A stretch of DNA of 64,000 nt. It comes from Chloroflexota bacterium. Lineage in GTDB: Bacteria; Chloroflexota; Limnocylindria; Limnocylindrales; CSP1-4. Made by a program: the position numbers and the translations under genes. Positions within the stretch are counted from its first letter, which is position 1, and each line of letters opens with the position of its first letter. Of the stretch, positions 36,167 to 56,283 are shown one piece after another. Location: assembly GCA_919901745.1 (NCBI GenBank), contig CAKKPP010000039.1, positions 39,426-103,425 on the forward strand, read 5' to 3'. The notes under the pieces were generated by a model. That model saw only the letters and a list, made by a program, of their open reading frames with translations, did no database searches and had not been told where the DNA came from.

Positions 36167-38182
36167 GTGACTTCTGAGGAACCGCGCCGGGAGTCCATCG
36201 ACGATCTTGATGCGCTGCTGGCCTCCCTCCCGCCCGAGATCGTCGCCGCCGTCCGTGCCCTCCCGGAAGTGGAACACGTGATCGAGGTCGTCATGGACCT
36301 GGGGCGTCGGCCCGAGGCACGCTTTCCCGATTCCGAGATCCTGCTTCTCGAACGCGAGATCAACGACGCCGACATCGCCTACGTCGTCGATCACATCGGG
36401 ACATTCGGCGATGACAACCGGGCCGGGATCGAGCGGACGCTCCATCGCATCAGCGCCATTCGGAACCGGGCCGGCAAGATCGTGGGGTTGACCTGCCGGA
36501 TCGGCCGAGCCGTCTACGGCACGATCGACATCATTGCGGACTTCGTCCAGACCGGAAAGTCGACCCTGATCATGGGTCGCCCCGGGATCGGCAAGACGAC
36601 GATGCTGCGCGAGGCTGCGCGGGTACTTGCCGACGATATGGGCAAGCGCGTCGTCGTGGTGGATACCTCGAACGAGATCGCCGGAGACGGCGACATCCCG
36701 CATCCGGCCATCGGCAAGGCGCGCCGAATGCAGGTCCGCACGCCCTCGATGCAGCACGAAGTCATGATCGAGGCGGTCGAGAACCACATGCCGCAGGTCA
36801 TCGTCATCGACGAGATCGGAACCGAGCTGGAGGCCCAGGCCGCCCGGACGATTGCCGAGCGCGGGGTCCAGCTCATCGGGACCGCGCACGGCAACAACCT
36901 TGACAACCTGATGCTCAACCCGACGCTATCCGATCTGATCGGCGGCATTCAGAGCGTGACCCTTGGCGACGACGAGGCTCGCCGGCGGCGGACCCAGAAG
37001 AGCGTCCTCGAACGCAAGGCTCCGCCCACCTTCGACGTCATCGTCGAGATCCAGGATCGGGATCGCGTCGCCGTGCACAGCGACGTTGCCGACACGATCG
37101 ATGCGCTGCTGCGCGGCGATGCCGTCGCGCCCGAGCTGCGTTGGCGCGATGAAGAGGGCGTGCACCGATCGCAGGGACGGCCGCGGCCCTCGCCGAGGGA
37201 GCAGCTCGGCGCGGAGCGGTTTGCCGGGCTCGTCGGGTCTGGACAGCCGTGGCGAATGGAGCCCGGATGGCGCGGCGAGACCACCTATCGCGCTGCCGGA
37301 TACCGTGATGCCGAACGCGGCGGGTTCAGGGCCGGGTACCGTCCGGGAGCGTCCGGAGGTTGGCGGCAGACGCGAGGCGGATCGGGACGGGAGGCCCCGC
37401 CGCGATCGTCCGAACCCAGTGCCCGGGGAGAGGTTCCGTTCGTTGCCGGCGATATCGCCGATCGCGGTCCGCTCGAGCGGGGCGCCGCCCCCGCGCCTGA
37501 GCCGCGTGCCCGGGATGCTCGCGAATTCGAGCGCCAACAGGCGTGGCGGGATCAGGCCGCGCGGGCACTGACGACGCTCCACGCAGACGAAGGGACCGGG
37601 CCCGTCAATGGGCCCGATCTGGGTGCCGATGATGAGCTCCTGCTCGACCGGGCGATCGCCGACGGGATCGAAGAAGATGGGCCGGCCCTCCGAGTGGCCG
37701 ATGCCGGATCGCTGCCCACCCTTCGACTGGTATCCCAGGGGATCAGCCGCAAGCGCCTGGAACAGGCGATTCGCGAACTGCAGCTCCCCGTCGTGATCGC
37801 TCGCGATCTCGACGACGCGGACGTGGTGATGACGCTCAAGAACGATTACCGCCAGAAGACCCCGATGATCCGCGAGGCGGAGGAGCGGGCCCTGCCGATC
37901 TATGTCCTGAAGAGCAACACGATCCTCCAGATCCAGGCGAGCCTCACGTCCATCTTCTCGCTCGAGGTGGATCCCCGCGAGGCGGCCCTGCGTGAGACGG
38001 AAGAGGCAATCGGCCTCGTCCTGCACCAGGCCGAACCGGTGGAGCTGTCTCCCCAGAACGCCTACATCCGCCGGCTCCAGCACCAGATGGCGGAGCGGGC
38101 GAACCTCGTGTCGCGCTCGCGCGGGCGCGAGCCATACCGACGCGTGCGCCTGTACCCGGATCAAGCGAGGGCCTGGCGGTAG
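36167..38182 (+). CDS. AAA ATPase with R3H domain (Ycf45/SpoIIIAA-like)
   Basis: A 671-residue protein. The N-terminal ATPase (about 20-320) has Walker [21 protein letters not shown] and Walker [18 protein letters not shown], then [20 protein letters not shown], as in SpoIIIAA/Ycf45. A low-complexity Arg/Gly/Pro-rich linker follows (about 325-480). The C-terminal part (about 500-671) has [20 protein letters not shown] and ends in an R3H single-strand nucleic-acid-binding motif ([20 protein letters not shown]). GTG 36167 is preceded by GGAGG. Likely a nucleic-acid-associated ATPase; its role in Chloroflexota is not established. Confidence 0.87.
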
Positions 38183-38431: not shown

Positions 38432-39871
38432 TCAGGCCAGGTCGCGACGGAGCGCTGAGCGGGCTGCGTGCCAGCCCGACATCCCGTGGACACCACCCCC
38501 CGGCGGGGTAGAGGACGAACACAGGTAGAGCCCGCGGCCCAGGTGATACGGATCCAGGGATGGTGACGGGCGGAAGATGAGCTGGCGCCAGTCCTGGATC
38601 CCGCCGTTGATGTCGCCACCGACGTAGTTCTCGTCGTAGCGCTCCATGTCGCTCGGCGACCAGGCCCGGCGCGCCAGAATCAGGTCGCGAAACCCGGGGG
38701 CAAAGCGCTCCACCTGATCTTCGATACGGTTGGTCATGTCGATGGCCGAACCGTTCGGCACGTGGCAGTACGCCCAGGCCGTGTGCTTGCCCGTCGGTGC
38801 CCGGGTGGGATCGAACAGCGTTGGCTGGACGAGCAGCACATACGGTCGCTCCGGGTGGCGGCCGGCGTTGACCTCGGCCTCGGACGCCGCGATCTCATCG
38901 AGCGTGCCGCCGAGGTGGACGGTGGCGGCGCGGCCGACATCGGGAGCCGTCCAGGGGATGGGGCCGTCGAGCGCCCAATCGAGTTTGAACACGCCCGGGC
39001 CGTAACGGAAGCCTTCGAGCCGTCGGCGCGGCCCGGTCGCGAGCCGATCGCCGGCGATCGACACGACCTGCCTCGGGGTCAGCGCGAACAGCACGGCCCG
39101 GGCCGGAGGCAGGTCGCTCATCGCACGGACGGGGTGGTCCGTGACGATCTCGACACCCAGGTCGGTTGCCTCGGCGATGAGCGCATCCGCCACCGCCTGC
39201 GAGCCGCTGCGGGCCAGTGGCCATCCGTGGGCATGGGCGACCATCGCCAGCACCAGCCCGAAACTCGCCGACAGCGGCGCCGTCAGCGGAAGCATCGAGT
39301 GCGCGGCGATCCCCGCGAACAGCGCCCGGGCCTCCTCGCTATCGAAGCGCGAGCGTGCCAAGCCACGGGTCGACCGCAGGGCGGGCAGACCGAAGCGAGC
39401 GAGCGCGAGCGGGTGGCGCGGCAGGTGGGCGACGGGGCCCAGCAACTCCGGCATGAGGCGCTCCGCATCGCGGACGAGGGGACCGAACAGGCGTCGCCAG
39501 GCACGGCCATCGGGTCCCAGTGCGTCTGCCGTGGTCTGGACCGATCGTTCGAGGATCGCGGAACGATCGCCGCCGAGGGGATGGGCCACCGGCACGGCGG
39601 GATGGACCCACTCCACGCCGCGTGCCGCGAGGTCCACCGTGCGCAGGAACGGCGACGCCAGCGCCACCCCGTGGATCGCGGAGCAGGGATCGTGGATGAA
39701 GCCGGGCAGCGTCAGTTCCGCCGAGCGCGACCCGCCGCCCGCGGCCGGCGTAGCCTCCAGGATCGTCACGGAACGGCCGGCGCGGGCCAGGGTGATCGCC
39801 GCGGCGAGGCCGTTTGGCCCGGCCCCGACGACGATTGCATCAAGGTCCGCGGGCCGCGCCGGCGCGCTCAT
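38432..39871 (-). CDS. phytoene-desaturase-like FAD oxidoreductase
   Basis: A 479-residue flavoprotein. It has N-terminal dinucleotide motif DAIVVGAGPNGLAAAITLAR, LEATPAAGGGSRSAELTLPG and C-terminal GLYLCSSSTPPGGGVHGMSG, the pattern of carotenoid-desaturase-related NAD(P)/FAD oxidoreductases. 13 bp separate it from the upstream gene, so it may be the last gene of the membrane-sensor/SpoIIE operon. Substrate unknown; no carotenoid genes are nearby. Confidence 0.85.
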   Translation of the reverse strand: MSAPARPADLDAIVVGAGPNGLAAAITLARAGRSVTILEATPAAGGGSRSAELTLPGFIHDPCSAIHGVALASPFLRTVDLAARGVEWVHPAVPVAHPLGGDRSAILERSVQTTADALGPDGRAWRRLFGPLVRDAERLMPELLGPVAHLPRHPLALARFGLPALRSTRGLARSRFDSEEARALFAGIAAHSMLPLTAPLSASFGLVLAMVAHAHGWPLARSGSQAVADALIAEATDLGVEIVTDHPVRAMSDLPPARAVLFALTPRQVVSIAGDRLATGPRRRLEGFRYGPGVFKLDWALDGPIPWTAPDVGRAATVHLGGTLDEIAASEAEVNAGRHPERPYVLLVQPTLFDPTRAPTGKHTAWAYCHVPNGSAIDMTNRIEDQVERFAPGFRDLILARRAWSPSDMERYDENYVGGDINGGIQDWRQLIFRPSPSLDPYHLGRGLYLCSSSTPPGGGVHGMSGWHAARSALRRDLA

Positions 39872-39884
39872 CGAAGCCTGGGCC

Positions 39885-40646
39885 TCACCCCCGGCCGGTG
39901 AGCTTGCGCAATGGCGCGGTCAGGGTCCGCCGCGCGGACCGGATGGTCGCACTGTTGCGGACGTTGCGCCAGTAGCGCCACTGCCGGTTGCGATCGATGC
40001 ACACGACCTGCGTGTCGACGGCCGGCGAGGCGACCCCGACCGCGGCCGCGAGGTTGCGCAGGGTCGCCTCCCAGAACCGGTCGTTCTGGCGGTTGCCGCC
40101 CAGCATGTAGGCCAGCTCGTCGAACGGGTCGGATGGTCGCTCCAGGGCCTGCGCCTGAGCGACGGTCACGTCCCCGTCGCGCCGTGCGGAGAAGGTGATC
40201 CACGCCGACAGGATATGGCCTTCGGGGGACATGAACGTGAACGACTCGTCGTCCGCATAGAGGACGAGCACGCCGGTTGAGAACCTGACCGGCGCCCCGG
40301 GCAACGGCTCGATCTCGAGCAGGGCGACTTCGCCCGGCGCGATGCCCGACAAGGGGGCGTAGAACCGCTGGCCCTTCGGCCAGAACGTCGGGAACCGCTC
40401 CTTCCAGAGGGCGATGAGGTCGGTCGGGGAGATGTCGACGCCGTCGAGGCGGACCGTGAAGGTCTTCTGCCACAGCTGGCCGAAGCCCTGCAACGGCCCG
40501 GACACGCGCCTCCCGGTCACCGCATCGTCCGTTGCGCCTGCCACCCCGGCCGCCGACAGGCGGTCGACCGGTTGGGCCCAGTTTGCCGCGTCGCGATTGG
40601 TCGCGGCGTCGTGGTTCGGCGGCGGCTTGACGTTCAGCTCGGTCAT
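39885..40646 (-). CDS. conserved hypothetical protein of the SpoIIE/STAS operon
   Basis: A 253-residue soluble protein. The middle (about 55-200) has FTVRLDGVDISPTDLIALWK, RFYAPLSGIAPGEVALLEIE and ESFTFMSPEGHILSAWITFS, suggesting a ligand-binding beta-barrel/helix-grip-like fold. No catalytic motif. ATG 40646 has GAGGAGACC 4 nt upstream. It lies 34 bp after the second STAS gene. Possibly a ligand-binding partner of the signalling proteins; function unknown. Confidence 0.68.
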   Translation of the reverse strand: MTELNVKPPPNHDAATNRDAANWAQPVDRLSAAGVAGATDDAVTGRRVSGPLQGFGQLWQKTFTVRLDGVDISPTDLIALWKERFPTFWPKGQRFYAPLSGIAPGEVALLEIEPLPGAPVRFSTGVLVLYADDESFTFMSPEGHILSAWITFSARRDGDVTVAQAQALERPSDPFDELAYMLGGNRQNDRFWEATLRNLAAAVGVASPAVDTQVVCIDRNRQWRYWRNVRNSATIRSARRTLTAPLRKLTGRG

Positions 40647-40680
40647 CGCAGGTCTCCTCGATCCCCCGGTCGCGGCCGGG

Positions 40681-41028
40681 TCAGGCCGTCGCGGCCACCA
40701 TGGCCGCGGCATCGTCGTCGTAGATCTCGATCGCCTCATCGAGGCGGGTCAGCGAGAAGATCTGGCGGTAGTGCTCGGACAGGCCGGTTGCGACGAGCCT
40801 CCCACCGCCGCGCCGGGCGCGGACGAGGAGCGTCACGAGGAGCCCGATGCCACCGCTGTTCATGTACTCGAGCTTGCTGAAATCGAGGATGACGGCCGTC
40901 GCCCCGTTCGCCGCGGCGAGGCCGTAGGCGGCCATGAGGTCGGCTTCGCTGGCGGAGGTGACGTCACCTTCGATCCGCAGGATGGCCGCGGGTCCGTCCT
41001 GGTCCAGCTCGATGACGGTGGCGGTCAT
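40681..41028 (-). CDS. STAS-domain anti-sigma-factor antagonist
   Basis: A 115-residue single STAS domain. AAILRIEGDVTSASEADLMA and ATAVILDFSKLEYMNSGGIGLL place the phosphorylatable Ser in MNSGGIG. ATG 41028 overlaps the stop of the other STAS gene (ATGA). Expected to be phosphorylated by a HATPase kinase and dephosphorylated by the SpoIIE phosphatase encoded upstream. Confidence 0.9.
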   Translation of the reverse strand: MTATVIELDQDGPAAILRIEGDVTSASEADLMAAYGLAAANGATAVILDFSKLEYMNSGGIGLLVTLLVRARRGGGRLVATGLSEHYRQIFSLTRLDEAIEIYDDDAAAMVAATA

Positions 41029-41357
41029 GCGGCGTCTCCTTCCACGATCTCCATGAAGTCGGACAGGCGCGTGATCCGGAAGATCTCGCGGTAGTGCTCG
41101 GTCAGGCCGATGGCCCGGACTGCGCGACCGTCGCGGCGCGCCTGGGCCAGAAGCCGCACGACGAGCGCGATGCCGGTGCTGTTGATGTAGCCGACGTGCG
41201 CGAAGTCGAGGCTCACGCGCCGCGGGCCGAGGGCCGCGACCTGCGCGTAGGCGCTGGCCAGCGCCTCGTCGGCACGGCCGTTGAGATCGCCGCTGAGCCG
41301 GAGCCGGATCTCTTCCGGAACCTCCGTGATCTCTGCGCCGAATTGCCGCTCATCCAT
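41025..41357 (-). CDS. STAS-domain anti-sigma-factor antagonist
   Basis: A 110-residue STAS protein with RLRLSGDLNGRADEALASAY and VSLDFAHVGYINSTGIALVV (Ser in INSTGIA). It is homologous to the neighbouring STAS protein (both end in GLxEHYRxIFxxTRLxxxxEI). It overlaps the SpoIIE fusion gene by 8 bp upstream. Two antagonists for one kinase/phosphatase imply branched output. Confidence 0.9.
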   Translation of the reverse strand: MDERQFGAEITEVPEEIRLRLSGDLNGRADEALASAYAQVAALGPRRVSLDFAHVGYINSTGIALVVRLLAQARRDGRAVRAIGLTEHYREIFRITRLSDFMEIVEGDAA

Positions 41358-42984
41358 TGGTCCGCTCCTCGCGCGCCATCGTCAGGGTCACCGTCTGGGT
41401 TGACCCGTCGCTGGTCACGTCCATCGAATCCACCATGTTCTTGATCAGGAAGAGGCCCCAGCCACGCGGCTTCTGCGCACCGGCGAGTTTGAGCTCGATG
41501 TCCGGCGCTTCGGCGTCGGTCGGGACGGCGCCGGACAGCGCGCGGTCCGTGATCCGGACGACGATCGCGTCCGCGGTCGTCTCCACGGCGATGTCGACGG
41601 GGACGTCCGGATTGCCCTGGCTGCCGTACTCGATGGCGTTCATCGTCGCCTCGCTGACGGCCGTCTTGAGGCGCTCGAGGCGCGCCGGAGGCAGCCCCAG
41701 GCCGCCGGCGGCCGCCGCGACGCGGTCCATCGCCAGGCGCTCGTTGCCCTCCTCGCCCGGGATGGAGAAGGCCGTGATGAGCGCCGGGCCGGCCTGCCCG
41801 TCGCTCGCCGGTTCATCGGCCACGCCGGAGGCCCGCCGGAGGGTCACGAGCGTGATGTCGTCCTCCTGCTCCCAATCGGGGCCGGTGAACCGGTGGAGCG
41901 TCTCGAGCAGGCGGTCGAGCAGTTCGCTCCCGGCGTCGTCGACGGCCATCTCCTGTCGAAGTCGTGGGAAGCCATACATCTGCTGGTTCGGGTCGTGGGC
42001 CTCCACGAGCCCGTCCGAGTAGAGCAGGACGCTGCTGGCGGGGGCGATGACGCCTTCGGTTTCCTCGTATCGGATGCCCGGCATGAGGCCGAGCGGCATG
42101 CCGGTCGCGCGCAGCTCGACGACGCCGTCGTCCGTGCGGATGTACGGGAGGTTGTGTCCCGCATTGGCAATGACGATCCGCCCCGTCTCGGGCTCGAGGA
42201 TCGCGAACAGGCAGGTCACGAACATCCGGGCCGGCATCTCCGGTTCGAGCAGGGCGTTCGCGCGGCGCAGGATCTCGCCCGGTGAATTGCTCCGGCTGGC
42301 TTCGGCACGGAGGATGGAGTGGGTCCGGGCCATGACCAGGGCCGCAGGCACACCCTTGTCTGTGACGTCGCCGACGGCGATCCCGATCCGGCCGTCGGGC
42401 ATGTCGATGAAGTCGTAGAAGTCGCCACCCACCGCGCGCGCCGGGCCGTAATAGGCGGCGATCTGCCACTGCGGCAGCTTGGGCAGCTCGCGCGGCAGGA
42501 ATTGCTGCTGGATAAGGGTCGCAACGCGCATCTCCTGCTCCAGGCGCTCGCGTTCTGCGGCTTCGTGTGCCTGCTCGCGGACGAGTTGGGCGACCCGGAT
42601 GGCGGGTGCGGCCTGGGCGGCCAGGGTGGTCAGAAGGCGCCGGTCATCGGTCGAGTATTCCTGCTCGGACAGGCGCGGACCCAGGTTGAGCGTGCCGATC
42701 AGTTCGCCCTGGGAGACCAATGGGACGACCAGGGCCACGCCGGCTTCGCGCATCGCCCGGACCGCAGGCGAGTCCAGTTCCAGCCGGGCGATCTCGATCG
42801 GCCCGGATGCCGACTGGAGATAGGCGAGCAACGGGTCCGACTCGGCGATGTCCACCGCGATCGACGGATCGTCGGTCAGGCGCGCCGGTTCGGTGACTGC
42901 CGGGGACTCGGGCACCGCATCCGGTTCCGGGGTGTCGGTGTGACGTCCGAGGAGGCGGCGGATCGGACGGGTCAGTTCGGTCAT
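41350..42984 (-). CDS. GAF-SpoIIE phosphatase-HATPase fusion (RsbU/RsbW in one chain)
   Basis: A 544-residue regulator. A GAF-like domain spans about 45-150 and a helix about 150-185 (LVREQAHEAAERERLEQEMR). The PP2C-type SpoIIE domain spans about 185-385 (AVGGDFYDFIDMPDGRIGIA, VGDVTDKGVPAALVMA, VLLYSDGLVEA, EQEDDITLVTLR: metal-binding Asps present). The C-terminal HATPase spans about 400-540 (LERLKTAVSEATMNAIEYGS, RGWGLFLIKNMVDSMD). It therefore joins the phosphatase and the kinase of a partner-switching module. ATG 42984 overlaps the stop of the fourth membrane protein. The longer frame upstream is not coding. Confidence 0.92.
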   Translation of the reverse strand: MTELTRPIRRLLGRHTDTPEPDAVPESPAVTEPARLTDDPSIAVDIAESDPLLAYLQSASGPIEIARLELDSPAVRAMREAGVALVVPLVSQGELIGTLNLGPRLSEQEYSTDDRRLLTTLAAQAAPAIRVAQLVREQAHEAAERERLEQEMRVATLIQQQFLPRELPKLPQWQIAAYYGPARAVGGDFYDFIDMPDGRIGIAVGDVTDKGVPAALVMARTHSILRAEASRSNSPGEILRRANALLEPEMPARMFVTCLFAILEPETGRIVIANAGHNLPYIRTDDGVVELRATGMPLGLMPGIRYEETEGVIAPASSVLLYSDGLVEAHDPNQQMYGFPRLRQEMAVDDAGSELLDRLLETLHRFTGPDWEQEDDITLVTLRRASGVADEPASDGQAGPALITAFSIPGEEGNERLAMDRVAAAAGGLGLPPARLERLKTAVSEATMNAIEYGSQGNPDVPVDIAVETTADAIVVRITDRALSGAVPTDAEAPDIELKLAGAQKPRGWGLFLIKNMVDSMDVTSDGSTQTVTLTMAREERTNG

Positions 42985-44288
42985 GTCGTGGTCACCTTCG
43001 CAGCGTGGTGTCCGGGAATCGTTACGGGGGAGCGCCGAACGGTCGTTTCGTAGCGCCGGAGCCAGAGCACGCTGGCCGTGGGATGAAACGTCCGACCGAC
43101 GACCCCCACGACATCGATTTCGATGCGCTCCAGGTCGATGTCGTCGCGCAGGCGGGCGGTCAGCGCCTGGACTGTGCGGGACGCGTCGTAATGGGAGCGG
43201 TCGAAACGCGCATCGACGGCCACCTGCGCCCGCCGCCGGAGTGGGCCGAATAGGGTGAAGACGAGGAGCGTCGAGGCGGCCACGGCTACCGTATCGCCCG
43301 CGGCAATCGAACCGAGGAGCGCGCTGAGACCGATGGCGCTCGTTGCGAACACGGCCGCCAATGCACCCGTGACGAGGGCGTATCCCAGGGTCCGGCTGAT
43401 GAGGCGATCGATGTCGTAGAGGTGATAGCGCAGGATCGCGATGCCGATGGCGACCGGGACGAGCGCCCCGGCGAACCCGAAGACGGCCAGGCCAATCTCC
43501 GGCGGATCGCCGGCGACAACGGCGCCAGCGCCCGAAAAGCCGAACGCTCCCGTCGCCACGACGAGCGCGAGCCCGAACCACTTCAGCTGCTGCCGCTCGA
43601 TGGACGCTGCGAGCCGGTAGCGCGAGACGAGCGACCACAGAAGGAGGGGGACGAAGATGACGCTGCTCGCGGCGGCCACAGGCGAGACCTCCATCCCGGG
43701 CGCCGACCGCAGGTCGGGGCCCAACCCGAACGGGTTCTCGATGGTCGGGAAGACACTCAGCGGTCCGGGTTGGAGGACGATCATCAGCCACGCCACCGGG
43801 CCACCGATCAAGAACAGGCGGACGAATCGATCCCATCGAGGGGTGTGCCCTCGACCGGTCGGGAAGATGAACCCGATGCCGAACAGAAAGCCTCCCATGG
43901 TGATGAAGAGGGTGGTCAGCCAGCCGGTGAGCTGGGCGGTTCGGAGAGCCTCCTGCGTGCCGACGGCGACCATGAAGTAGGTCGCCGCCGCGGCGAATAT
44001 GCCCACGGCGTGCCCGACGCCGATCAGGACCATGCCCCAGCCGATGGCGTTAAGCGGGCGCCGAACGACCAGTAGCGCCCCGACCGAGGCAAACGCGACT
44101 CCCATGACCCCGAACCCGACCAGCGCGACATCGCCAAACCCGAACGGGTTCCGGATGATCGGGACCGGGTCGACGATCCGGAGCGTGGTCGCTCCCACCG
44201 CGCCGACCAGCGCAGCGAGCCACCCCACGATCGCGTACGGCCGGGCCAACCTCCGCATCATCGCAGCGCGGCCAGCCTGACGACCCAT
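42981..44288 (-). CDS. tandem membrane sensor-like protein 4
   Basis: A 435-residue protein with about 8-10 hydrophobic segments. The shared C-terminal module reads AILRYHLYDIDRLISRTLGY, DTVAVAASTLLVFTLFGPLR and FDRSHYDASRTVQALTARLR, then ends in VLWLRRYETTVRRSP. It looks like the input half of a Chloroflexota/Actinobacteria sensor kinase but has no HisKA or HATPase. ATG 44288 has GAGGG 4 nt upstream and follows the previous stop by 13 bp; ATG 44261 is an alternative. The stop is coupled to the SpoIIE fusion, which may be its output. Confidence 0.8.
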   Translation of the reverse strand: MGRQAGRAAMMRRLARPYAIVGWLAALVGAVGATTLRIVDPVPIIRNPFGFGDVALVGFGVMGVAFASVGALLVVRRPLNAIGWGMVLIGVGHAVGIFAAAATYFMVAVGTQEALRTAQLTGWLTTLFITMGGFLFGIGFIFPTGRGHTPRWDRFVRLFLIGGPVAWLMIVLQPGPLSVFPTIENPFGLGPDLRSAPGMEVSPVAAASSVIFVPLLLWSLVSRYRLAASIERQQLKWFGLALVVATGAFGFSGAGAVVAGDPPEIGLAVFGFAGALVPVAIGIAILRYHLYDIDRLISRTLGYALVTGALAAVFATSAIGLSALLGSIAAGDTVAVAASTLLVFTLFGPLRRRAQVAVDARFDRSHYDASRTVQALTARLRDDIDLERIEIDVVGVVGRTFHPTASVLWLRRYETTVRRSPVTIPGHHAAKVTTT

Positions 44289-44301
44289 CTGGCCCTCGAG
44301 G

Positions 44302-45507
44302 TCATCGTGCCCGCCCGAGTCGGAGCCACAGGCTCGCGGCTGTGGGTTCGACGCTCTGCACGACCGCGTCGACGACGGCGCTGCTGACGATGGGAAGATC
44401 CATCTCGTCGCGAAGGCGTGCGGCGAGGGCATCGAGCGTTCGCTCCGAGTCGTAGCGTGCGCGGTTGAAGCGATGATCCACAGCTGCCTGCGTCCGGCGC
44501 CGAACGGGTTGGAAGAGCGCCGCCGCGACGAGCGTGGACGCGGCCACGGCGACCGTGTCGCCACCGGTGATCGCGCCAAGCGGACCCTGCAGGATCAGGA
44601 TCAAGCCGGCGTAGATGACCAGCAGCGTCGCGCTGATCACACCGTACGAGATCGTTCGACTGACGATCCGGTCGATCTCGTAGAGGCGGTAGCGCATGAT
44701 CGCGACCCCGATCGCGAGCGGCGCCAGAAGGGGCGACAAGATCCAGGCTCTCCACACGGTGTCATTGAGCGCCCCGTTACCGGTCGTCAGGAACATCAGG
44801 ACGAGCAGGGCGATGGAGGTCCCGATCGCCGCCCCGAACCAGCGGATCTGGGCGCGGACGACCGAGCTGCCACGGATGTATCGGCGGATGAGCCCGACGA
44901 ACGCGAGGATCGACGCCAGGCCATACGTGAAGAAAGCGACGGCGAAGACGTCGTCGGCACCGAGAACCGGGATCCCAGCGACCCCGAGCGGATTGTCGAC
45001 CGGCTCGATCCAGCCGTACTCGAGCGGCCCCGGTCGAAGGGCGCCGAGCAGCATGATTGCTGCCGAGAGGGCGAGCAGGACGTCCACGAGGACGGCCGAG
45101 CGGCTCGGCTCCCGTCCGTCCGGGAAACGGCTGATGAGGAGCGGGCCGCTCACCAGGACCACCACCCCGAAGATCGCGGAGCCGACGACGGCGAGCGCGG
45201 CGCCCAGCGGCGGCAGGCGTCCGGGCAGGGAATCGAGGGTGACCGTAGCGAGCTGGAGGATGCCGCTCACGATCAGGAGCACGCCGATCGTCAGGCAGAT
45301 CCGGCCGACGACCTGGCCGGGCCGCCGATCCTCGATCATCGCGCCGACAGTCGTGAACGCGACCATGCCGCCGATCCCCAGCCAAAGGTCCTCGGACAGC
45401 CGGTCGCCAGCCGCTGCCGAGACGGTCAACACGATTGCGACGCCGGCCGCCACGAGCGGCAGCGCGACCAGGACCCGATGTCGTCGCACGGATCGAGGGC
45501 CGCTCAC
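44302..45507 (-). CDS. tandem membrane sensor-like protein 3
   Basis: A 401-residue paralogue: multi-pass N-terminus (FPDGREPS in the middle, PGPLEYGWIEPVDNPLG in a loop), then AIMRYRLYEIDRIVSRTISY, DTVAVAASTLVAAALFQPVR and FNRARYDSERTLDALAARLR, ending in ASLWLRLGRAR. GTG 45507 overlaps the stop of protein 2 (GTGA) and gives a length equal to its paralogues; the GTG at 45528 is less likely. No kinase domain. Confidence 0.8.
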   Translation of the reverse strand: MSGPRSVRRHRVLVALPLVAAGVAIVLTVSAAAGDRLSEDLWLGIGGMVAFTTVGAMIEDRRPGQVVGRICLTIGVLLIVSGILQLATVTLDSLPGRLPPLGAALAVVGSAIFGVVVLVSGPLLISRFPDGREPSRSAVLVDVLLALSAAIMLLGALRPGPLEYGWIEPVDNPLGVAGIPVLGADDVFAVAFFTYGLASILAFVGLIRRYIRGSSVVRAQIRWFGAAIGTSIALLVLMFLTTGNGALNDTVWRAWILSPLLAPLAIGVAIMRYRLYEIDRIVSRTISYGVISATLLVIYAGLILILQGPLGAITGGDTVAVAASTLVAAALFQPVRRRTQAAVDHRFNRARYDSERTLDALAARLRDEMDLPIVSSAVVDAVVQSVEPTAASLWLRLGRAR

Positions 45508-46709
45508 CGACCGGATCCCCGAAGCCACAGCCCCAGGTGCGACGGAGCAATGGCGCGTCGCACCGTGGCGTCCAGGTCGTGGGCGACCGTCGGCAGGTCG
45601 GTCGCGTCGCGCATCCGGACGGAGAACGCGCCCGCCGTCCGTTCGCCGTCATAGCGGGCCCGATCGAAGCGTCGATCGACGATGCGCTGGACTCGCCGTC
45701 GGACGGGCGTGAACAGCGCTGCCGCCAACAGGGTGGACCCCGCGACGGCGAGCGAATTGCCCGATGTCACGGAACTGAGCAGCCCCTGCAGTCCGAGGTT
45801 CACGAGCAGGAAGACCGCCACCAGCAGCGCCGTGATCAGGCCGTAGGCGATCGTCCGACTCACGATGCGATCGATGTCGTACAGGCGGTAGCGCAGGATC
45901 CCAATGGCGACGGAGACGGCGACGATGGGCAGCGTCATCACGGTGAGGAGGTCGATGACGGGCAACGACGATAGGACCCCACTGACGCTCATGGTGATCA
46001 GGACGGCGGCGGGTGCCATCGCCGCCAGGAACCATTTGAGCTGCTGCTGTTGGTCGCCCTGGGAGCGCCGAAAGCGGACGATCATGGCCGCGACACCCAA
46101 CCCGGTCCCGAGCGGGAGCGACAGGCTGCCGATGGCAGCAAGCGCGCCCAGGGCCTCGAGCATGCCCGGCGAGACTGCGGGCAGCCAGGGCGTCAGGGGG
46201 TTGTCCGTCCCCGGGGCAGATATCGGACCCGGCCGGAACACGATGGCCAGCGTCCCGACCACGACCATCGCGGCAACGAGGCCGACCGGCCAGCGCCAGC
46301 GCGGACCGGGGAGGCTGCCCGTCGGGAACGTGAGTGCGACCGCGGGCAGGGTCAGGATGATGGCGGGGGGGAACAACAGCGCCGCGACAAGGCTGAGCCA
46401 TCCGCCCAGCGGGTCGGGCGGCAGACGTGAGGCGAGCATGTAGCCGAGGGAATTGCACCCGAACACCGAGGCCATCAGAGCGGCGGCGACCGCGAACAGC
46501 CAGCCAACGGCGTGCCCGTCGGCTCGCACCACGATGACCGCGCCCAGGCCCCAGTACAGCCAGAGCGCGGCGAAGAGGATCACGAGGAACCCCGAGTACC
46601 CGAGATCGAGTCCTTCTTCGCCTGGCGAGCTGAGCAGAACAATCGCCACGACGACCATGGCGATCAGCATGATCACGCCGAGCGCCGCGATCGCGAGAAG
46701 CCGCCTCAT
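45504..46709 (-). CDS. tandem membrane sensor-like protein 2
   Basis: A 401-residue paralogue with an N-terminal helix directly at MRRLLAIAALGVIMLIAMVV, FPTGSLPGPRW, then GILRYRLYDIDRIVSRTIAY, GNSLAVAGSTLLAAALFTPV and FDRARYDGERTAGAFSVRMR, ending in LGLWLRGSGR. ATG 46709 overlaps the stop of protein 1 (ATGA). The QQQQLKWFLAAMAP motif after the loop is shared with the others (QQLKW). Confidence 0.8.
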   Translation of the reverse strand: MRRLLAIAALGVIMLIAMVVVAIVLLSSPGEEGLDLGYSGFLVILFAALWLYWGLGAVIVVRADGHAVGWLFAVAAALMASVFGCNSLGYMLASRLPPDPLGGWLSLVAALLFPPAIILTLPAVALTFPTGSLPGPRWRWPVGLVAAMVVVGTLAIVFRPGPISAPGTDNPLTPWLPAVSPGMLEALGALAAIGSLSLPLGTGLGVAAMIVRFRRSQGDQQQQLKWFLAAMAPAAVLITMSVSGVLSSLPVIDLLTVMTLPIVAVSVAIGILRYRLYDIDRIVSRTIAYGLITALLVAVFLLVNLGLQGLLSSVTSGNSLAVAGSTLLAAALFTPVRRRVQRIVDRRFDRARYDGERTAGAFSVRMRDATDLPTVAHDLDATVRRAIAPSHLGLWLRGSGR

Positions 46710-47926
46710 CGCTGCCCCTCGCGTAGCCACAGGCCGACGCTCGATGGCTCGATGGCCCGCCGGACCGTCGCGTCGAGTTCGCTCGCGATGGTCGGCAGGT
46801 CCACCTCGTCGCGGAGTCGGGAGGCGAAACCGGCAACGGTCCGTTCCGCGTCGTATCGCGCTCGGTGGAAGCGGCGGTCGACGACCCGCTGGACCCGGAC
46901 GCGGACGGGATTGAAGAGCGCGGCGACGAGCAAGGTGGAAGCCGCGACGGCGATCCCCGAGTTGTTGACGAGGGGGCTCATGTTGGATACGAGCGTGAGA
47001 TTCACCGCGGCGAAGACACCGAACAGGACGAGCGACACGACGCCATAGCCGATCGCGTTGCTGATGATCCGGTCGACGGCGTAGAGCCGGTAGCGCAGGA
47101 TCGCCAGCCCGATGGCGAGCGGGATGAGTGGAAGCGTCAGGAAAAGACCGAAGTAGGAGATCTCGCCGATCGAATACAGGAGCGTACCTTCCGCCGCGGC
47201 GGCGACCTCGGTGAGCACCAGGCCGATCAGCGGGAGCATCAGCGCGCCACCGGCCAGGGCGAGCCACTTCAGCTGCTGACGCTCGTCGCCACGCGCCGTG
47301 CGGAAGCGGACGACGAGGAGGCCCAGGCTCAGGACCAGGGCTCCGATGATGGCCAGGCCCGGTACGTCACCCATGCCGCGGACCACCTCGCCGACGATCC
47401 CGGGGGCCCCGAGCGGGTTGTCCACTTGATCGAAGCCACCGAGCGGCCCGGGTCGGACGGCGGCGAGGGCCCACCCGGCGAGCGACGCACTCGCACACAG
47501 CAGACCCGGCAGGCGGACCCTTCCGGCCGGAAGGTGGCCACGCGGAAACGTCAGGAACACGATCGTCGTGCCGACCGGGATGATCCAAAAGGTCTGCGCG
47601 TTGAACCAGGCGGCCAGGAGCACGGCAGGAGAGCGGAAGCCGGATGCGAGCGAGGTGCTCGCGTACTCGTAGGCGAGGCTGCTGGCCGTGAAGGTGAGGC
47701 CCATGAGGAGCAGGATCCAGCCGATGACGTTCCCGGGACGTCGGATCGCGATGACCAACCCGACCAATGGGAACGTCAGGAAGAGGAGGAGAAAGGCGGC
47801 GGAGAGAAGGAACCCTTCGGGCGAAACTGGGCCGCTCAACACGGCAATCATGCTGATGATGAGGGTCGGGCCGACCGCAGCAAGCCACAAGGCCAGGGCG
47901 GCGAGGACGCGGATCGACCGGCGCAT
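46706..47926 (-). CDS. tandem membrane sensor-like protein 1 (first of the operon)
   Basis: A 406-residue paralogue: FPRGHLPAGRVRLPG, RPGPLGGFDQVDNPLGAPGI, ERQQLKWLALAGG, AILRYRLYAVDRIISNAIGY, GIAVAASTLLVAALFNPVRV and FHRARYDAERTVAGFASRLR, ending in SVGLWLREGQR. ATG 47926 has AGGATGG 5 nt upstream; ATG 47947 would add seven residues. It heads a run of coupled genes that continues through the SpoIIE fusion and STAS genes. The cytoplasmic tail without a kinase suggests signalling through another partner. Confidence 0.8.
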   Translation of the reverse strand: MRRSIRVLAALALWLAAVGPTLIISMIAVLSGPVSPEGFLLSAAFLLLFLTFPLVGLVIAIRRPGNVIGWILLLMGLTFTASSLAYEYASTSLASGFRSPAVLLAAWFNAQTFWIIPVGTTIVFLTFPRGHLPAGRVRLPGLLCASASLAGWALAAVRPGPLGGFDQVDNPLGAPGIVGEVVRGMGDVPGLAIIGALVLSLGLLVVRFRTARGDERQQLKWLALAGGALMLPLIGLVLTEVAAAAEGTLLYSIGEISYFGLFLTLPLIPLAIGLAILRYRLYAVDRIISNAIGYGVVSLVLFGVFAAVNLTLVSNMSPLVNNSGIAVAASTLLVAALFNPVRVRVQRVVDRRFHRARYDAERTVAGFASRLRDEVDLPTIASELDATVRRAIEPSSVGLWLREGQR

Positions 47927-47947
47927 GTAACCATCCTGGGGCACCAT

Positions 47948-47996: not shown

Positions 47997-50855
47997 ATGG
48001 CGCGCCCCGACCCCTCCCTTTCCATCAGGCTGCTCGGCCCGCTCGAGGTCGCGGTCGCCGGACGACCGATCGTGGTCGATACCCGCAAGGCGCTCGCCAT
48101 CGTCGCGCTCGTCGCCGCCGAGGGCCGGCCCTTCGCTCGCGATGAGCTGGCGGCGATCTTCTGGCCGGAGTCGCACGACGAGGCCGCTCGCGGCGCCCTC
48201 CGCCGAACGCTCTCGGCGCTCCGAACGGCGGTCGGTGGGGTGGGGATCGTCACCGGCCGGGCGCAGGTCGCGCTGGATCAGGCGGCATCGAACGTCGATC
48301 TTGCGGAGTTCGAGCGGCTGGCGGAATCGTCCCGGCCGGCCGACCTCGAGGCGGCGGCCGCCCTGGCGCGCGGGCCGTTCCTGGCCGGCTTCGCGCTCCG
48401 CGACAGCCCCGCCTTCGACGATTGGCAGGCGGCCCGCGCCATGCGCGTCGAGCGGACTGTCGGCGACGTGCTTGAACGTCTTGCGGCTGCCCGCCTTGAC
48501 AGCGGTGATCCCGGCGGGGCGGTTGAAGCAGCGCGACGTCGAGTGGACCTCGACCCACTCGACGAACCGGGGCAGCGGCGCCTGATCGAGCTGCTGGGGC
48601 AGACGGGCGATCGGGCTGGATCGATTCGTCAATACCGCTCGCTCGTCGCGCTCTTCGACCGCGAGCTGGGCGTGGCGCCGCTGCGCGAGACGACCGACGT
48701 GTACGACGCCATCCGTGAGGGTCGGCTGGGCCCGGGCCCGGCCGCGAGCGCGTCGCCGCCGGGTTTCGCGCCGGTCGAAGCCGCGGGTTTCAGCGATCCT
48801 GCCATGCCGCGGGCGGTGCCTCTCGTAGGGCGCGAGCGCGAGCTCGCGACAATCAGATCGGCCTGGCGGGGCTCGACCCCGGATGGCCGTGTGATCCTCC
48901 TCGAAGGCGAGGCCGGAATCGGCAAGACACGCTTGGCGGAGACCGTCGCCGCAACGATCCGCCTGGATGGCGGGGGCGTCCTCGCAGCGGGCGGCTACCC
49001 GGGCGAGGGTGCCATCGCGTACGGCCCGATCGCCGAGCTTCTCCGCGCCGGACTCGCGACACCCGACGGAGCCACCCGCCTGGAGGCCCTCGACGAGACG
49101 GCCCGGCACGAGATCGGCCGCCTCATCGACCTGCCGGCGCCGCTCCGGGTCGCTGGGCCCGCCGCTCCCGACGGCGCGAGCGCCAGGGTCCGCCTGCTCG
49201 ACGCCATCGCGAGCGCGTTGTCCGCCCTCGCAACCGGACCGGCGCCCGGGCTCATCTGGGTCGATGACCTCCACCTCGTCGACGACCCGACGCGGGAAGC
49301 GCTTGCCTACCTCGCCCGCCGCCTGGACGGTCGGCCGCTCCTCCTGCTTCTGGCCTGGCGACGAGAGGACCTGACGCCGAAGAGTGAGGCGATGTTGGAC
49401 GATCTTGCCCGGCTGCAGGCGGCGACGAGCCTCGCACTCGGGCGTCTCGATCGCGACGGGGTCGCCGCGATCGTCCGCGCCATGCGACCGTCCGGCGACT
49501 CCGACGACGCGCTCATCGACGCGTTCGCGGCCGATTCCGAAGGGTTGCCGCTGTACGTTGTCGCGGCTCTGGCCAGCGGCGAGCCACCGGGAACCGCGAT
49601 GCCACGTGGGGTGCACGCGTTGCTTCGTGAGCGGATCGCGTCGGTCGGCGAGACGACGGCGCAGATCCTCTCGGCCGCGGCCGTCATCGGTCGGTCGTTC
49701 GATCTCGTCACCGTCCGCCGGGCGAGTGGCCGATCTGAAGAGGAGACGGTCGACGCGATCGAGGAACTGCTCCGCCGCGGCATCGTGCGCGAGGTCCCCG
49801 GGGCGGTCGGACCATCGGTTCGATACGACTTCGCACACGGTCGGATGCGCGACGTCGCGTACGGGATCACGAGCCTCGCGCGTCGCCGTCTGCTCCACCG
49901 CCGGACGGCAGAGGCTCTGCGGCTCGACCCATCGACGGTCGGGCGCGACGATCTCACCAGGTTCGCGCTCATCGCCGGCCACGAGCGCGAGGCGGGTCGG
50001 CCCGCCGAGGCCGCCGAGGCCTTCCTCGAGGCAGCGGCTCGGGCAGAGTCCGTCTTCGCGAATCGCGAGGCGATCGACCAACTGGAGGCGTCGCTCACCC
50101 TGGGGATTCCCGACGCGGCGGCCGCCCACGCCCGGATCGGCGAGCTCCGGTCGCGCCTCGGCGAGTACCCCGCTGCGATCACCGCCCTGGAGATCGCCGC
50201 CGCGCTTGCCGGGCCGTCAGACCTTCCGGCGATCGAGATCGCGCTCGGTCGGGTGCATCGGCGCCGGGGCGACCTCGTCGCGGCCGCCAGCCACCTCGGG
50301 TCCGCCCTGGCGTCAACCGACCTGTCCGATGCGCTCCGGGCGCGCGCTCTCGTGGAATGGAGCGTCGTCGCGCTGCGGGCCGGCGACCTTGATGTCGCCG
50401 GGGCGGCAGCAGCAGAGGTCCGGGAGATGCAGGTACGCGTCGAAGACCCGCATCTCGCCGGTGTGGCGGAGCGTCTCGTCGGGCTCGTCGCCCACGCGCT
50501 TGGGGACCTCGCCGAGGCCCGCGAAGCGCTCGAGCGGAGCGTCGTTCTGGCCGCCAATGACCCCGATCCCACCGCATCGATCGCGGCGCTGACCGCCCTC
50601 GCCCTCGCCCTGGCGGCCGACGGCTCGGTCGATTCGGGGGTGGCGACCGCGACTGAGGCGATCGAGGCCTGCCGGCGGATCGGGGATCGTCACCTGGAGG
50701 CAGCCGTCGAGAACCACCTGGCCGACATGCTTCACGGCGCGGGCCGCCTGGACGATTCGATGGCCCACCTCAAACGGGCCGTCGCCCTCTTCGCGGCGAT
50801 CGGCGAGGGCGAGCTGGAGCGCGACCCCGGGATCTGGACGCTCGCCGCCTGGTGA
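47997..50855 (+). CDS. BTAD/AAA/TPR transcriptional activator (SARP-like)
   Basis: A 952-residue regulator. An OmpR-type winged helix spans about 8-95 (SIRLLGPLEVAVAGRPIVVD, FARDELAAIFWPESHDEAAR, ALRRTLSALRTAVG). The bacterial transcriptional activation domain spans about 100-245 (FLAGFALRDSPAFDDWQAAR, GQRRLIELLGQTGDRAGSIR). AAA ATPase with Walker A EGEAGIGKTRLAETVAA (about 303) and LIWVDDLHLVDDPTREAL (Walker B) follows. TPR-like repeats fill the C-terminus (about 640-950). Divergent from the sensor/SpoIIE operon and probably its regulator. Large SARP-like activators usually respond to small molecules through the ATPase/TPR part; the signal here is unknown. Confidence 0.9.
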   Translation: MARPDPSLSIRLLGPLEVAVAGRPIVVDTRKALAIVALVAAEGRPFARDELAAIFWPESHDEAARGALRRTLSALRTAVGGVGIVTGRAQVALDQAASNVDLAEFERLAESSRPADLEAAAALARGPFLAGFALRDSPAFDDWQAARAMRVERTVGDVLERLAAARLDSGDPGGAVEAARRRVDLDPLDEPGQRRLIELLGQTGDRAGSIRQYRSLVALFDRELGVAPLRETTDVYDAIREGRLGPGPAASASPPGFAPVEAAGFSDPAMPRAVPLVGRERELATIRSAWRGSTPDGRVILLEGEAGIGKTRLAETVAATIRLDGGGVLAAGGYPGEGAIAYGPIAELLRAGLATPDGATRLEALDETARHEIGRLIDLPAPLRVAGPAAPDGASARVRLLDAIASALSALATGPAPGLIWVDDLHLVDDPTREALAYLARRLDGRPLLLLLAWRREDLTPKSEAMLDDLARLQAATSLALGRLDRDGVAAIVRAMRPSGDSDDALIDAFAADSEGLPLYVVAALASGEPPGTAMPRGVHALLRERIASVGETTAQILSAAAVIGRSFDLVTVRRASGRSEEETVDAIEELLRRGIVREVPGAVGPSVRYDFAHGRMRDVAYGITSLARRRLLHRRTAEALRLDPSTVGRDDLTRFALIAGHEREAGRPAEAAEAFLEAAARAESVFANREAIDQLEASLTLGIPDAAAAHARIGELRSRLGEYPAAITALEIAAALAGPSDLPAIEIALGRVHRRRGDLVAAASHLGSALASTDLSDALRARALVEWSVVALRAGDLDVAGAAAAEVREMQVRVEDPHLAGVAERLVGLVAHALGDLAEAREALERSVVLAANDPDPTASIAALTALALALAADGSVDSGVATATEAIEACRRIGDRHLEAAVENHLADMLHGAGRLDDSMAHLKRAVALFAAIGEGELERDPGIWTLAAW

Positions 50856-50936: not shown

Positions 50937-52301
50937 TCAGTGTTCGGTCGCGCCCGTGAACGTCCACGAGGCGATGCGCACCGACGGCACAACCACGGCG
51001 CCGAGGAAGCCGCGGAGCGTTCGCCGCTCGCGACCAACGGCCTCGACGCCCGCCAGCGCGTCGAGGTACGACTGGGTGAACCGCAGGTTACGCACCGGCG
51101 CGACGATCTGGCCGTCCTCCACGAGAAACGTCCCGTCGCGGGTCATCCCGGTGATGATGGCCAGCTTGGGATGGATCACGTTCGTGTAATGAAAGCGAGT
51201 GACGAGAAGCCCCCGAGCCAGGCCTCCGATCAGCTCCTCGCGCGACGCACTGCCCGGGGCCATGACCATGTTCAGCGGGAACGGCCCATACGGGTTCGGG
51301 GCCGGCAGCCCGTGGCCCGTTGAGCGCACCCCGTCACGTGCCGCCGTCTGCGAGTCGTACACCACATCGACGCATGCCCCGGCATCGACAAGGGTGATCG
51401 GGCGCTTCGCCACACCCTCATAGTCGAAGGCCATCGGCAGACCGGCCGGGTCGGTCGCGTCGTCGACCACGGTCACCAGATCACTCCCGATGCGCTTGCC
51501 GCGTTCGTAAAACGAGCGTCCCTCCTGGACGGCCAGCGCGGAAAAGCCCACGTACCCCAGCATGTCCATGATGTCGACGACGGCATACGGCTCGAGGACG
51601 ACGGGATAGTCGCCGGGATCCAGGCCCGTCGCGCGATCGGTCGCTCGGGCCTTGTCCGCGGCCTCGCGTCCGATCGCCGCCGGGTCGATCGTCGTCGCAT
51701 CCGTTGCCACCGCCTCGGCGTAGCCGGTGCCACCGTCGGGTGACATGCTCACCGTCAGGAGCTGCGAATTCGTCCGGACCTCGACCGAGCGGATTCCCCG
51801 CGAGTTGGCAACCACGATCGTCTCTTCCGTCGTCGCAAACGAGCCATAGGCGACCACGCCCTTCGCATCTGCCTCCGCGATCACCGCGCGCGCGCCCTCG
51901 GCGCGAAATTCGGGGGTTGCATCGGCCGTCCCGGCGGCACGTGCCTCGGCGCGTTGACCACCCGAATGACCCGCGTCGGCGGTGGGCAGACCTGACCAGT
52001 CTCCGAGCTCCTCCACGGAGCCGGCGATCGCCGCCGCCGTCTCGACGAGGCGCCGCAGGCCGTCGGCATCCCTGCGCCCGCTCGACGCCACCCCGATCCG
52101 CTTGCCGATCGCGAACCGCAGGTTGAGCGACGTCCCGGTTTCAGCGACGTTCTGGTGAATCTCGCTGTTGGCGAAGCGGGTCAGCGCCGAATCGCCGGCC
52201 GTGACCATCACCTCCGCCTCAGTCGCCCCGGCCCGTTCGGCCAACCGAAGGACCTGGTCGGCCAGCGCGAGACGGTCCGCCGGATCGCGCTCGGTCACCA
52301 C
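50937..52301 (-). CDS. TldE/PmbA-family protein
   Basis: A 454-residue TldD/PmbA-family protein without an HExxxH motif, so the non-catalytic partner of TldD. GASATREL-type C-terminal features (MVMAPGSASREELIGGLARG, LLVTRFHYTNVIHPKLAIIT, TFLVEDGQIVAPVRNLRFTQ) are typical. TldD/TldE cleave unfolded peptides and process some modified peptides. 13 bp after TldD. Confidence 0.92.
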   Translation of the reverse strand: MVTERDPADRLALADQVLRLAERAGATEAEVMVTAGDSALTRFANSEIHQNVAETGTSLNLRFAIGKRIGVASSGRRDADGLRRLVETAAAIAGSVEELGDWSGLPTADAGHSGGQRAEARAAGTADATPEFRAEGARAVIAEADAKGVVAYGSFATTEETIVVANSRGIRSVEVRTNSQLLTVSMSPDGGTGYAEAVATDATTIDPAAIGREAADKARATDRATGLDPGDYPVVLEPYAVVDIMDMLGYVGFSALAVQEGRSFYERGKRIGSDLVTVVDDATDPAGLPMAFDYEGVAKRPITLVDAGACVDVVYDSQTAARDGVRSTGHGLPAPNPYGPFPLNMVMAPGSASREELIGGLARGLLVTRFHYTNVIHPKLAIITGMTRDGTFLVEDGQIVAPVRNLRFTQSYLDALAGVEAVGRERRTLRGFLGAVVVPSVRIASWTFTGATEH

Positions 52302-52314
52302 GGATCGTGCTCGC

Positions 52315-55560: not shown

Positions 55561-56283
55561 GTGACTCGAGGGCGCCGTTCGCGCGGCTGGTTCATCACGA
55601 TCGAGGGACCCGACGGCTCGGGCAAGACCGATCAGGCGGCCCGTCTGCGCGCCCGCGCGCGTGCCGCCGGGATCCCGTTCGTGCTGGCCCGCGAGCCGGG
55701 TGGCACGGCGGCCGGCGAACGAATCCGCGACATCCTCTTTGGCTCAGGTGCCGTCTCGGCGGGGCTCGATCGGCGCACCGACGCACTGCTGTTCAACGCC
55801 TCGCGAGCCCAGCTCGTCGCCGAGGTCGTCGAGCCTGGCCTGGCCGACGGCGCCCTGGTCGTGGCGACGCGCTTCGCCGACTCGACCGTCGCCTACCAGG
55901 GCCACGGGAGCGGGTTGTCCGTCGAGGACCTGCGCACGATCGAGCGGTTCACGACGGCCGGACTCCGCCCCGACCTCACGATCCTCCTCGACCTGGAGCC
56001 GGAGATCGGCCTGGGCCGCAAGGCGGTCGACGACCACAACAAGTTCGAGACCCACTTCGATCTCGACTTTCATCGTCGCGTGCGCGCGGGCTACCTGGCG
56101 ATGGCCACCGACGAGCCGGAGCGGTTCGCGATCGTCGATGCAAATCGACCGGCCGGCGACGTTTTCGGCGATGTTCTCCGGGCGATCGGGCGCCTGCCCG
56201 ACGGCCCGGACCTGGGCGTCGCCGGGAGCGACTCCGACTCGCGAAGTGAACCGCGGGCGGCTCGCTCGCGCATACCCGGATGA
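55561..56283 (+). CDS. tmk: thymidylate kinase
   Basis: A 240-residue dTMP kinase. It has P-loop FITIEGPDGSGKTDQAARLR, LAREPGGTAAGERIRDIL and VVATRFADSTVAYQGHGSGL. In most homologues the last motif begins DR(F/Y); here it is TRF, so the Asp is replaced while the Arg is kept. It makes dTDP for DNA synthesis. The C-terminal 25 residues are an extra charged tail. The TGA overlaps the ECF sigma ATG (ATGA), so it heads a tmk-sigma-anti-sigma operon. In Firmicutes tmk neighbours the c-di-AMP receptor darA, as it does here at a distance of 3 kb. Confidence 0.92.
   Translation: MTRGRRSRGWFITIEGPDGSGKTDQAARLRARARAAGIPFVLAREPGGTAAGERIRDILFGSGAVSAGLDRRTDALLFNASRAQLVAEVVEPGLADGALVVATRFADSTVAYQGHGSGLSVEDLRTIERFTTAGLRPDLTILLDLEPEIGLGRKAVDDHNKFETHFDLDFHRRVRAGYLAMATDEPERFAIVDANRPAGDVFGDVLRAIGRLPDGPDLGVAGSDSDSRSEPRAARSRIPG

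Follow-up and report, generated by a model that had tools for sequence, protein, structure and literature searches.

How does a protein that carries both a phosphatase and a kinase domain of the partner-switching type receive its signal? The question is raised by a 64,000-nucleotide stretch of contig CAKKPP010000039.1 from a Chloroflexota bacterium (the window, to which all unprefixed positions refer), in which an open reading frame (ORF) at 41350-42984 (-) encodes a single 544-aa chain that we call the hub. A sequence-only reading of this DNA had placed a SpoIIE-type phosphatase and an RsbW-like HATPase together in this chain, and Pfam bears out both the ORF and the pairing: behind a partial GAF domain and a long helix, the SpoIIE/PP2C domain spans residues 196-384 (41833-42399 (-); PF07228 positions 1-191 of 192, E 2.7e-50) and the RsbW/SpoIIAB-like HATPase (HATPase_c_2) residues 415-535 (41380-41742 (-); E 4.1e-21). 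The best relatives among PDB sequences are Rv1364c (3ke6) and other phosphatases for the SpoIIE domain, and SpoIIAB for the HATPase. The same reading took the two activities to reside normally on separate proteins and saw novelty in their fusion, which is not supported because HsbR, CrsR, Rv1364c and SypE have been described with both; these published cases rule out the fusion as something unusual, and by itself it would be ordinary. We consider it probable that the signal comes from outside the chain, in that a single bifunctional hub, by which STAS phosphorylation is set, is completed and hence controlled by membrane sensors, the locus encoding a partner-switching hub with detachable sensors.

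No receiver domain was matched in the hub by Pfam at E 0.1, and its N-terminus carries a GAF part instead. This had been read as a complete GAF domain ahead of the phosphatase; we found that the hub covers three GAF models only towards their C-terminal ends, with residues 39-129 on positions 45-127 of 129 in GAF_3, residues 75-129 on 88-135 of 136 in GAF_2, and residues 78-129 on 82-133 of 133 in GAF. By Pfam and a structural model of the hub, the part at residues 39-129 (42598-42870 (-)) is missing helix 1 and strand 1 of the fold. In that model, residues 1-38 have a pLDDT below 50 and the first helix or strand does not appear before residue 51; after residue 38 come short helices, two long strands (85-91 and 94-101) and a helix at 112-162 that runs into the PP2C domain. 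Hub N-termini often begin with a short basic stretch (RR..R, residues 1-15, in the window 42940-42984 (-)), possibly a membrane-contact helix, followed by a variable linker.

Directly upstream of the hub lie genes for four multi-pass membrane proteins, whose C-termini correspond to the GAF helix and strand that the hub is missing. TM1 (46706-47947 (-)) ends in ...SVGLWLREGQR, TM2 (45504-46715 (-), start assumed) in ...HLGLWLRGSGR, TM3 (44302-45528 (-)) in ...AASLWLRLGRAR, and TM4 (42981-44306 (-), start assumed within a frame open from 44579) in ...SVLWLRR followed by a tail of 23 residues. Helix 1 and strand 1 fall on TM4 residues 378-418 (43053-43175 (-)), which align to the first half of natural sensor-hub fusions and have a modelled counterpart in one of them (L094). 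Searching Pfam with whole TM1-TM4 gave no family above cut-off. Among 57 such sensors, the first 280 residues are variable, with pairwise identity averaging 0.21-0.36 in blocks of 40 residues, and residues 281-408 are better conserved (0.44-0.57). The end point is shared as well: 91 of 92 distinct free-standing sensors from hub-genome loci stop within 30 residues of the end of the sensor model, near ...SLWLR, and 61 of them within 5. This count takes only matches that reach model position 400 and leaves out GAF- or PP2C-fused sensors, sensors lying at the end of a contig, and matches stopping before that position; seven sensors stop early in this way, three of them in hub-less genomes (G020, G024) and one in a hub locus (L175), where the protein runs on for 116 residues past its match. 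Of seven such sensor ends from non-hub genomes, three lie within 2 residues of the model end and four continue for 77 to 302. The earlier proposal that a GAF domain sets the balance between phosphorylation and dephosphorylation holds insofar as a GAF part is present in the hub, and has to be amended insofar as this part is incomplete, the remainder apparently coming from the membrane sensors.

The separation of sensor and hub could have been a frameshift or an assembly error, an explanation that we rejected because sensors on other contigs and in other genomes end at the same point. One genome (G015) holds 11 sensor matches at E 1e-10, and those on five contigs (C15, C53, C62, C108 and C110) end as do those next to the hub on C109. 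Three loci with sensors downstream of the hub (L031, L036 and L037) also speak against such an error in the window.

Natural fusions join the two GAF parts. In two loci, sensor, GAF, PP2C and HATPase form one ORF each (L107 in G240, L108 in G152), and in four others the ORF runs from sensor through GAF to PP2C (L094 in G304, L166 in G291, L167 in G240, L168 in G152). The Pfam GAF match begins before the sensor model ends, at residue 378 versus 405 in L107, 463 versus 492 in L108 and 182 versus 213 in L094 (27, 29 and 31 residues earlier), and in all three it extends on through the hub part. Scores in L107 and L108 (26.9 and 23.8 bits) lie just above the Pfam cut-off of 22.4. When sensor tails and hubs were aligned with L094 (alignment A2), the tails fell on its first half and the hubs on its second, with hub linker residues and pieces of two tails straying. 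AlphaFold2 modelled the 216-residue L094 junction at pLDDT 87.9, the sensor part holding a helix (41-56) and a strand (61-65), and the PDB matches of this model are mostly GAF-bearing proteins, including phytochromes, PDE2 and PDE5 (best Foldseek E 5.3e-6). Superposition on 5nm3_B with VIA-align gave Z 12.7 and an rmsd of 3.1 over 143 residues; because the matched range is 21-176, sensor and hub parts both lie within it. By the Pfam spans and this model of L094, sensor tail and hub part are predicted to form one GAF domain jointly in the natural fusions. The HATPase can be detached as well: in six loci (L105, L106, L169-L172) it is an ORF of its own between GAF-PP2C and STAS1, and in a PP2C tree of 53 rows, those with half-GAF and PP2C and no fused HATPase (seven rows, L040 included) require at least two changes on starred branches.

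Hub and sensors also tend to occur together. In hub and sensor searches of 350 Chloroflexota genomes, each scoring no more than 4 or 5 candidates per genome, hub relatives (E 1e-90 or better) were present in 30, the best match elsewhere being 4e-62. Sensor matches (E 1e-20) were found in 25 of these 30 compared with 28 of the other 320 (Fisher p 8e-19, relatedness ignored), some hub genomes having just one. The five hub genomes that gave none comprise two with fused sensors (G240, G152), two with a hub that lacks the half-GAF (G318 and G304, the latter holding the L094 fusion besides), and G279, which is 84% complete with its hub on a 4.8-kb contig. As for the 28 non-hub genomes with sensor-like matches, we inspected the regions of 16 and judged 12 by frame length alone (625 to 1559 aa). 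Strand-ending sensors appeared in only two of the 16 (G286 and G210); in 13 the match ends sooner or the frame continues for 40 to 302 residues, and in G274 it is cut by the contig end. Among 396 genomes of Actinomycetota, the phylum of Blastococcus, 34 gave hub matches at E 1e-80, some of these being partial. In a set of 16 hub-genome entries, of which G029 and G390 gave identical hits, each entry holds 2 to 14 sensor matches at E 1e-8, some in longer frames. Outside both phyla, a Desulfotignum metagenome-assembled genome encodes a sensor-like part, GAF, SpoIIE and a PDZ match in one 941-aa frame (L043:1792-4614 (+)).

On the output side, two STAS ORFs adjoin the hub as had been reported: STAS1 (41025-41357 (-), 110 aa) overlaps the hub, and STAS2 (40681-41028 (-), 115 aa) overlaps STAS1. 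Their candidate phosphoserines are S60 in INSTG and S58 in MNSGG, and none of the 51 distinct STAS1 or the 49 distinct STAS2 sequences lacks the motif serine. Catalytic motifs were counted in 45 distinct hub rows (46 minus L126, a second copy of the window; a few near-copies remain), after dropping rows with masked stretches (X residues) or without all three domains; L040-L042 were left out of the hub profiles. The PP2C Asp columns examined, taken to include the metal-binding residues, are invariant in all 45. HATPases of this kind are marked by an N-box Glu/Asn, a G2 box Gly-x-Gly and a G1 box D-x-G. The first two do not vary in any of the 45 rows; the window has D-x-A in the G1 box, where Gly occupies 39 rows and Ala 6, and we judge this departure from the consensus to be compatible with ATP binding. 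In the genome that contains the window (the home genome, 92% complete), PF01740 STAS gives two matches and SpoIIE one, all in this cluster, and the hub is by far the top HATPase_c_2 match (80.2 bits, the next 31.3). For RsbR and RsbS, PF01740 returned only the two cluster STAS proteins, and no search was aimed at RsbT. A candidate for a separate RsbW (C3:337831) was rejected because on inspection it looks like the last part of a two-component kinase with a response regulator next to it; a further above-cut-off match to HATPase_c_2 lies in a 419-aa frame on C17. With the catalytic motifs conserved, and with no further PF01740 or SpoIIE protein found in the genome, the natural reading of the sequences is that kinase and phosphatase of the hub would oppose each other on STAS1 and STAS2.

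In the mechanism that we infer, the C-terminus of a sensor, contributing GAF helix 1 and strand 1, would dock onto the half-GAF of the hub and complete the fold. The state of the sensor would then travel along the long helix (residues 112-162), as has been argued for RsbU-type phosphatases (PMC12143880), and shift PP2C activity relative to the HATPase kinase in the same chain. The RsbW-like domain would phosphorylate S60 of STAS1 and S58 of STAS2, and the PP2C domain would dephosphorylate them; the phosphorylation state of the STAS proteins would be the read-out, and unphosphorylated STAS would bind a target.

Several observations weigh against control by detachable sensors. Hub-locus sensors, clipped close to their C-termini, were the input for the sensor model, and the position of its end therefore follows theirs by construction; the co-occurrence counts are phylogenetically non-independent; and the PP2C tree has a poorly resolved backbone. 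The fold evidence comes from a single natural fusion, L094, which has no HATPase and whose GAF match (18.0 bits) is under the Pfam cut-off, and by the aligner's own warning a Z below about 13 with long helices can mean merely a common arrangement. The G1 Gly-to-Ala change might lower ATP binding in the window HATPase. Three further points would suit a hub that is autonomous, its short GAF-like part serving by itself for dimerisation or ligand binding, with the membrane proteins as independent neighbours: the half-GAF was modelled confidently without the sensor (residues 41-130, block pLDDT 80-93) and so may need no partner; the isolated tails of TM1-TM4 gave no Pfam match, GAF included; and G286 (with two) and G210 (with one) hold sensors with the same kind of end and no hub relative at E 1e-90, other SpoIIE proteins in G286 reaching 1.1e-49. 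Against autonomy stand the natural sensor-hub fusions, the common end point of the sensors and their co-occurrence with the hub, and the fact that the helix and strand in question are missing from the hub, and we hold it to be unlikely.

A different doubt concerns the output and is compatible with a split-GAF input. The cluster might be a classical anti-sigma switch of the CrsR/HsbR kind, with the HATPase sequestering a sigma factor that unphosphorylated STAS sets free, which we rate as rather unlikely. The domain pair and the STAS proteins are as in HsbR and CrsR, for which such a switch is described (PMC6482189), and the home genome has 30 sigma region-2 matches besides its presumed primary sigma. 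However, the home genome, 92% complete, showed no SigB/SigF-type sigma: its lone Sigma70_r3 match falls in a 580-aa frame presumed to be the primary sigma, which leaves a SigB/SigF target without support. Nor did any of the nine cluster proteins match a sigma factor in Pfam, and the usual neighbours are instead an oxidoreductase and a protein with a weak likeness to DUF1990. The label "anti-sigma" that had been given to the HATPase is thus unsupported. Alternatively, the HATPase could be a pseudokinase or scaffold, leaving the hub in practice a sensor-controlled phosphatase whose STAS partners another kinase phosphorylates. The D-x-A variant of the window and five other rows would fit this, as would a paper cited for an analogous protein, going by its title ("Loss of kinase activity in ... 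Rv1364c"). Yet the N-box and G2 are invariant and the G1 Gly is kept in most rows, the HATPase persists even where it is a separate ORF, and, where the home genome has two further above-cut-off matches to HATPase_c_2, the one inspected resembles the end of a two-component kinase; we regard a pseudokinase as improbable.

The output of the hub might be an extracytoplasmic function (ECF) sigma factor, either of the two downstream proteins, or an unlinked protein. On the minus strand the genes run TM1, TM2, TM3, TM4, hub, STAS1, STAS2, ORF284 (39885-40739 (-)) and FADox (38432-39871 (-)); neighbours overlap by 4-59 nt (with the starts of TM2 and TM4 assumed), except for a 13-nt gap before FADox, and the nine genes look like one operon. 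ORF284 and FADox are frequent neighbours and candidate outputs. We compared 48 hand-picked loci besides the window (short loci and some duplicates omitted), some of which share a species or nearly so. Several of the contigs end early; downstream of the hub, STAS1 is present in 44 loci, STAS2 in 43, ORF284 in 42 and FADox in 31. ORF284 is weakly DUF1990-like: of 20 members, 8 give a DUF1990 match (best E 7.6e-5) and the one in the window gives none; an ORF284 profile had no match among PDB sequences. FADox is an FAD-dependent oxidoreductase resembling CrtO/CrtI carotenoid desaturases; it matches NCBIfam BCarotKetCrtO at E 3.3e-31 with 108.5 bits, far under the cut-off of 1000. STAS1 may belong to the design with detached sensors, because it is absent from all four intact-frame loci in which the hub is sensor-fused or lacks the half-GAF (L107, L108, L113 and L161); G240, G152, G318 and G304 each have a single match to the STAS1 query, at the place of STAS2.

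Known systems share parts of this arrangement. According to PMC6482189, HsbR of Pseudomonas aeruginosa and CrsR of Shewanella oneidensis each carry a receiver, a PP2C and a kinase/anti-sigma domain on a single chain and target the anti-sigma factor antagonists HsbA and CrsA, a likeness to the hub and its adjacent STAS genes; they have a receiver input, one antagonist each and sigma or FlgM targets, whereas the hub has a half-GAF, two STAS proteins and no sigma match in its cluster. SypE of Vibrio fischeri is a dual serine kinase/phosphatase of the STAS protein SypA, whose target is called unknown in PMC8256260, and, unlike the window system, no split sensor figures in the passage on it. Rv1364c of Mycobacterium tuberculosis combines PAS, PP2C, kinase and STAS domains and is described as a bifunctional kinase/phosphatase (PMC9138534). 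It resembles the hub in that PP2C and kinase share one chain; its input is a PAS domain and its STAS is fused, whereas the hub has a half-GAF and two separate STAS proteins. SypE differs from the hub in domain order and by its receiver domain. For RsbU-type phosphatases, control via a helical linker has been reported, the separate protein RsbT binding the N-terminal region and linker of the PP2C protein and activating it via a dimeric helix (PMC12143880). RsbT is freed from sequestration on stress, whereas here any of a number of membrane proteins would act as the partner and supply a piece of the fold. RsbT, moreover, is not a membrane protein. Finally, PrsK-like membrane histidine kinases (TIGR02916) match L094 weakly over residues 132-315, a stretch that takes in membrane part and GAF alike (E 5.1e-4, with 18.7 bits against a cut-off of 300); a PrsK-like kinase is a contiguous protein with a histidine-kinase output and is not split. 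Among the matches listed in the open-licence PMC literature, we found no relevant report of a split GAF domain, no mention of this cluster in work on fused PP2C-HATPase partner switching or Ktedonobacter RsbU/STAS, and nothing relevant linking DUF1990 with STAS, SpoIIE or phytoene. On our best reading, the sensor-completed hub is a new form of partner switching.

A broader proposition, for which we see about even chances, is that a GAF domain split across proteins lets divergent receptors, scattered over contigs in some genomes, share one plug and feed many signals into one STAS switch, in at least Chloroflexota and Actinomycetota and maybe without a SigB/SigF-type sigma. New membrane receptors could then be joined to an existing switch via a short plug, with no kinase of their own needed, which would give partner switching a plain way of integrating signals and a means, other than the stressosome, of directing many inputs to one phosphatase. 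It would also suggest a function for a multi-gene cluster common to the two phyla, in which the four membrane proteins of the window gave no above-cut-off Pfam match.

Other features of the loci were also noted. In L110 (G112) the oxidoreductase is present as two successive ORFs; this and the broken hub frames of G211 (L162 and L163, not used as evidence for the split) are decay or assembly errors. Within the window, a 671-aa protein at 36167-38182 (+) with an SpoIIIAA-like ATPase, a PTPase-named domain (PF25516) and R3H is convergent with the cluster. A 952-aa BTAD/AAA/TPR regulator (47997-50855 (+)) is divergent from TM1 at a distance of about 50 bp, and two TldD/PmbA-like metallopeptidase genes follow at 50937-53763 (-). 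A region-2 sigma factor of 202 aa, ECF-like by its size, is encoded at 56280-56888 (+) (G000:C39:95816-96019), about 8 kb past the 5′ end of the cluster.

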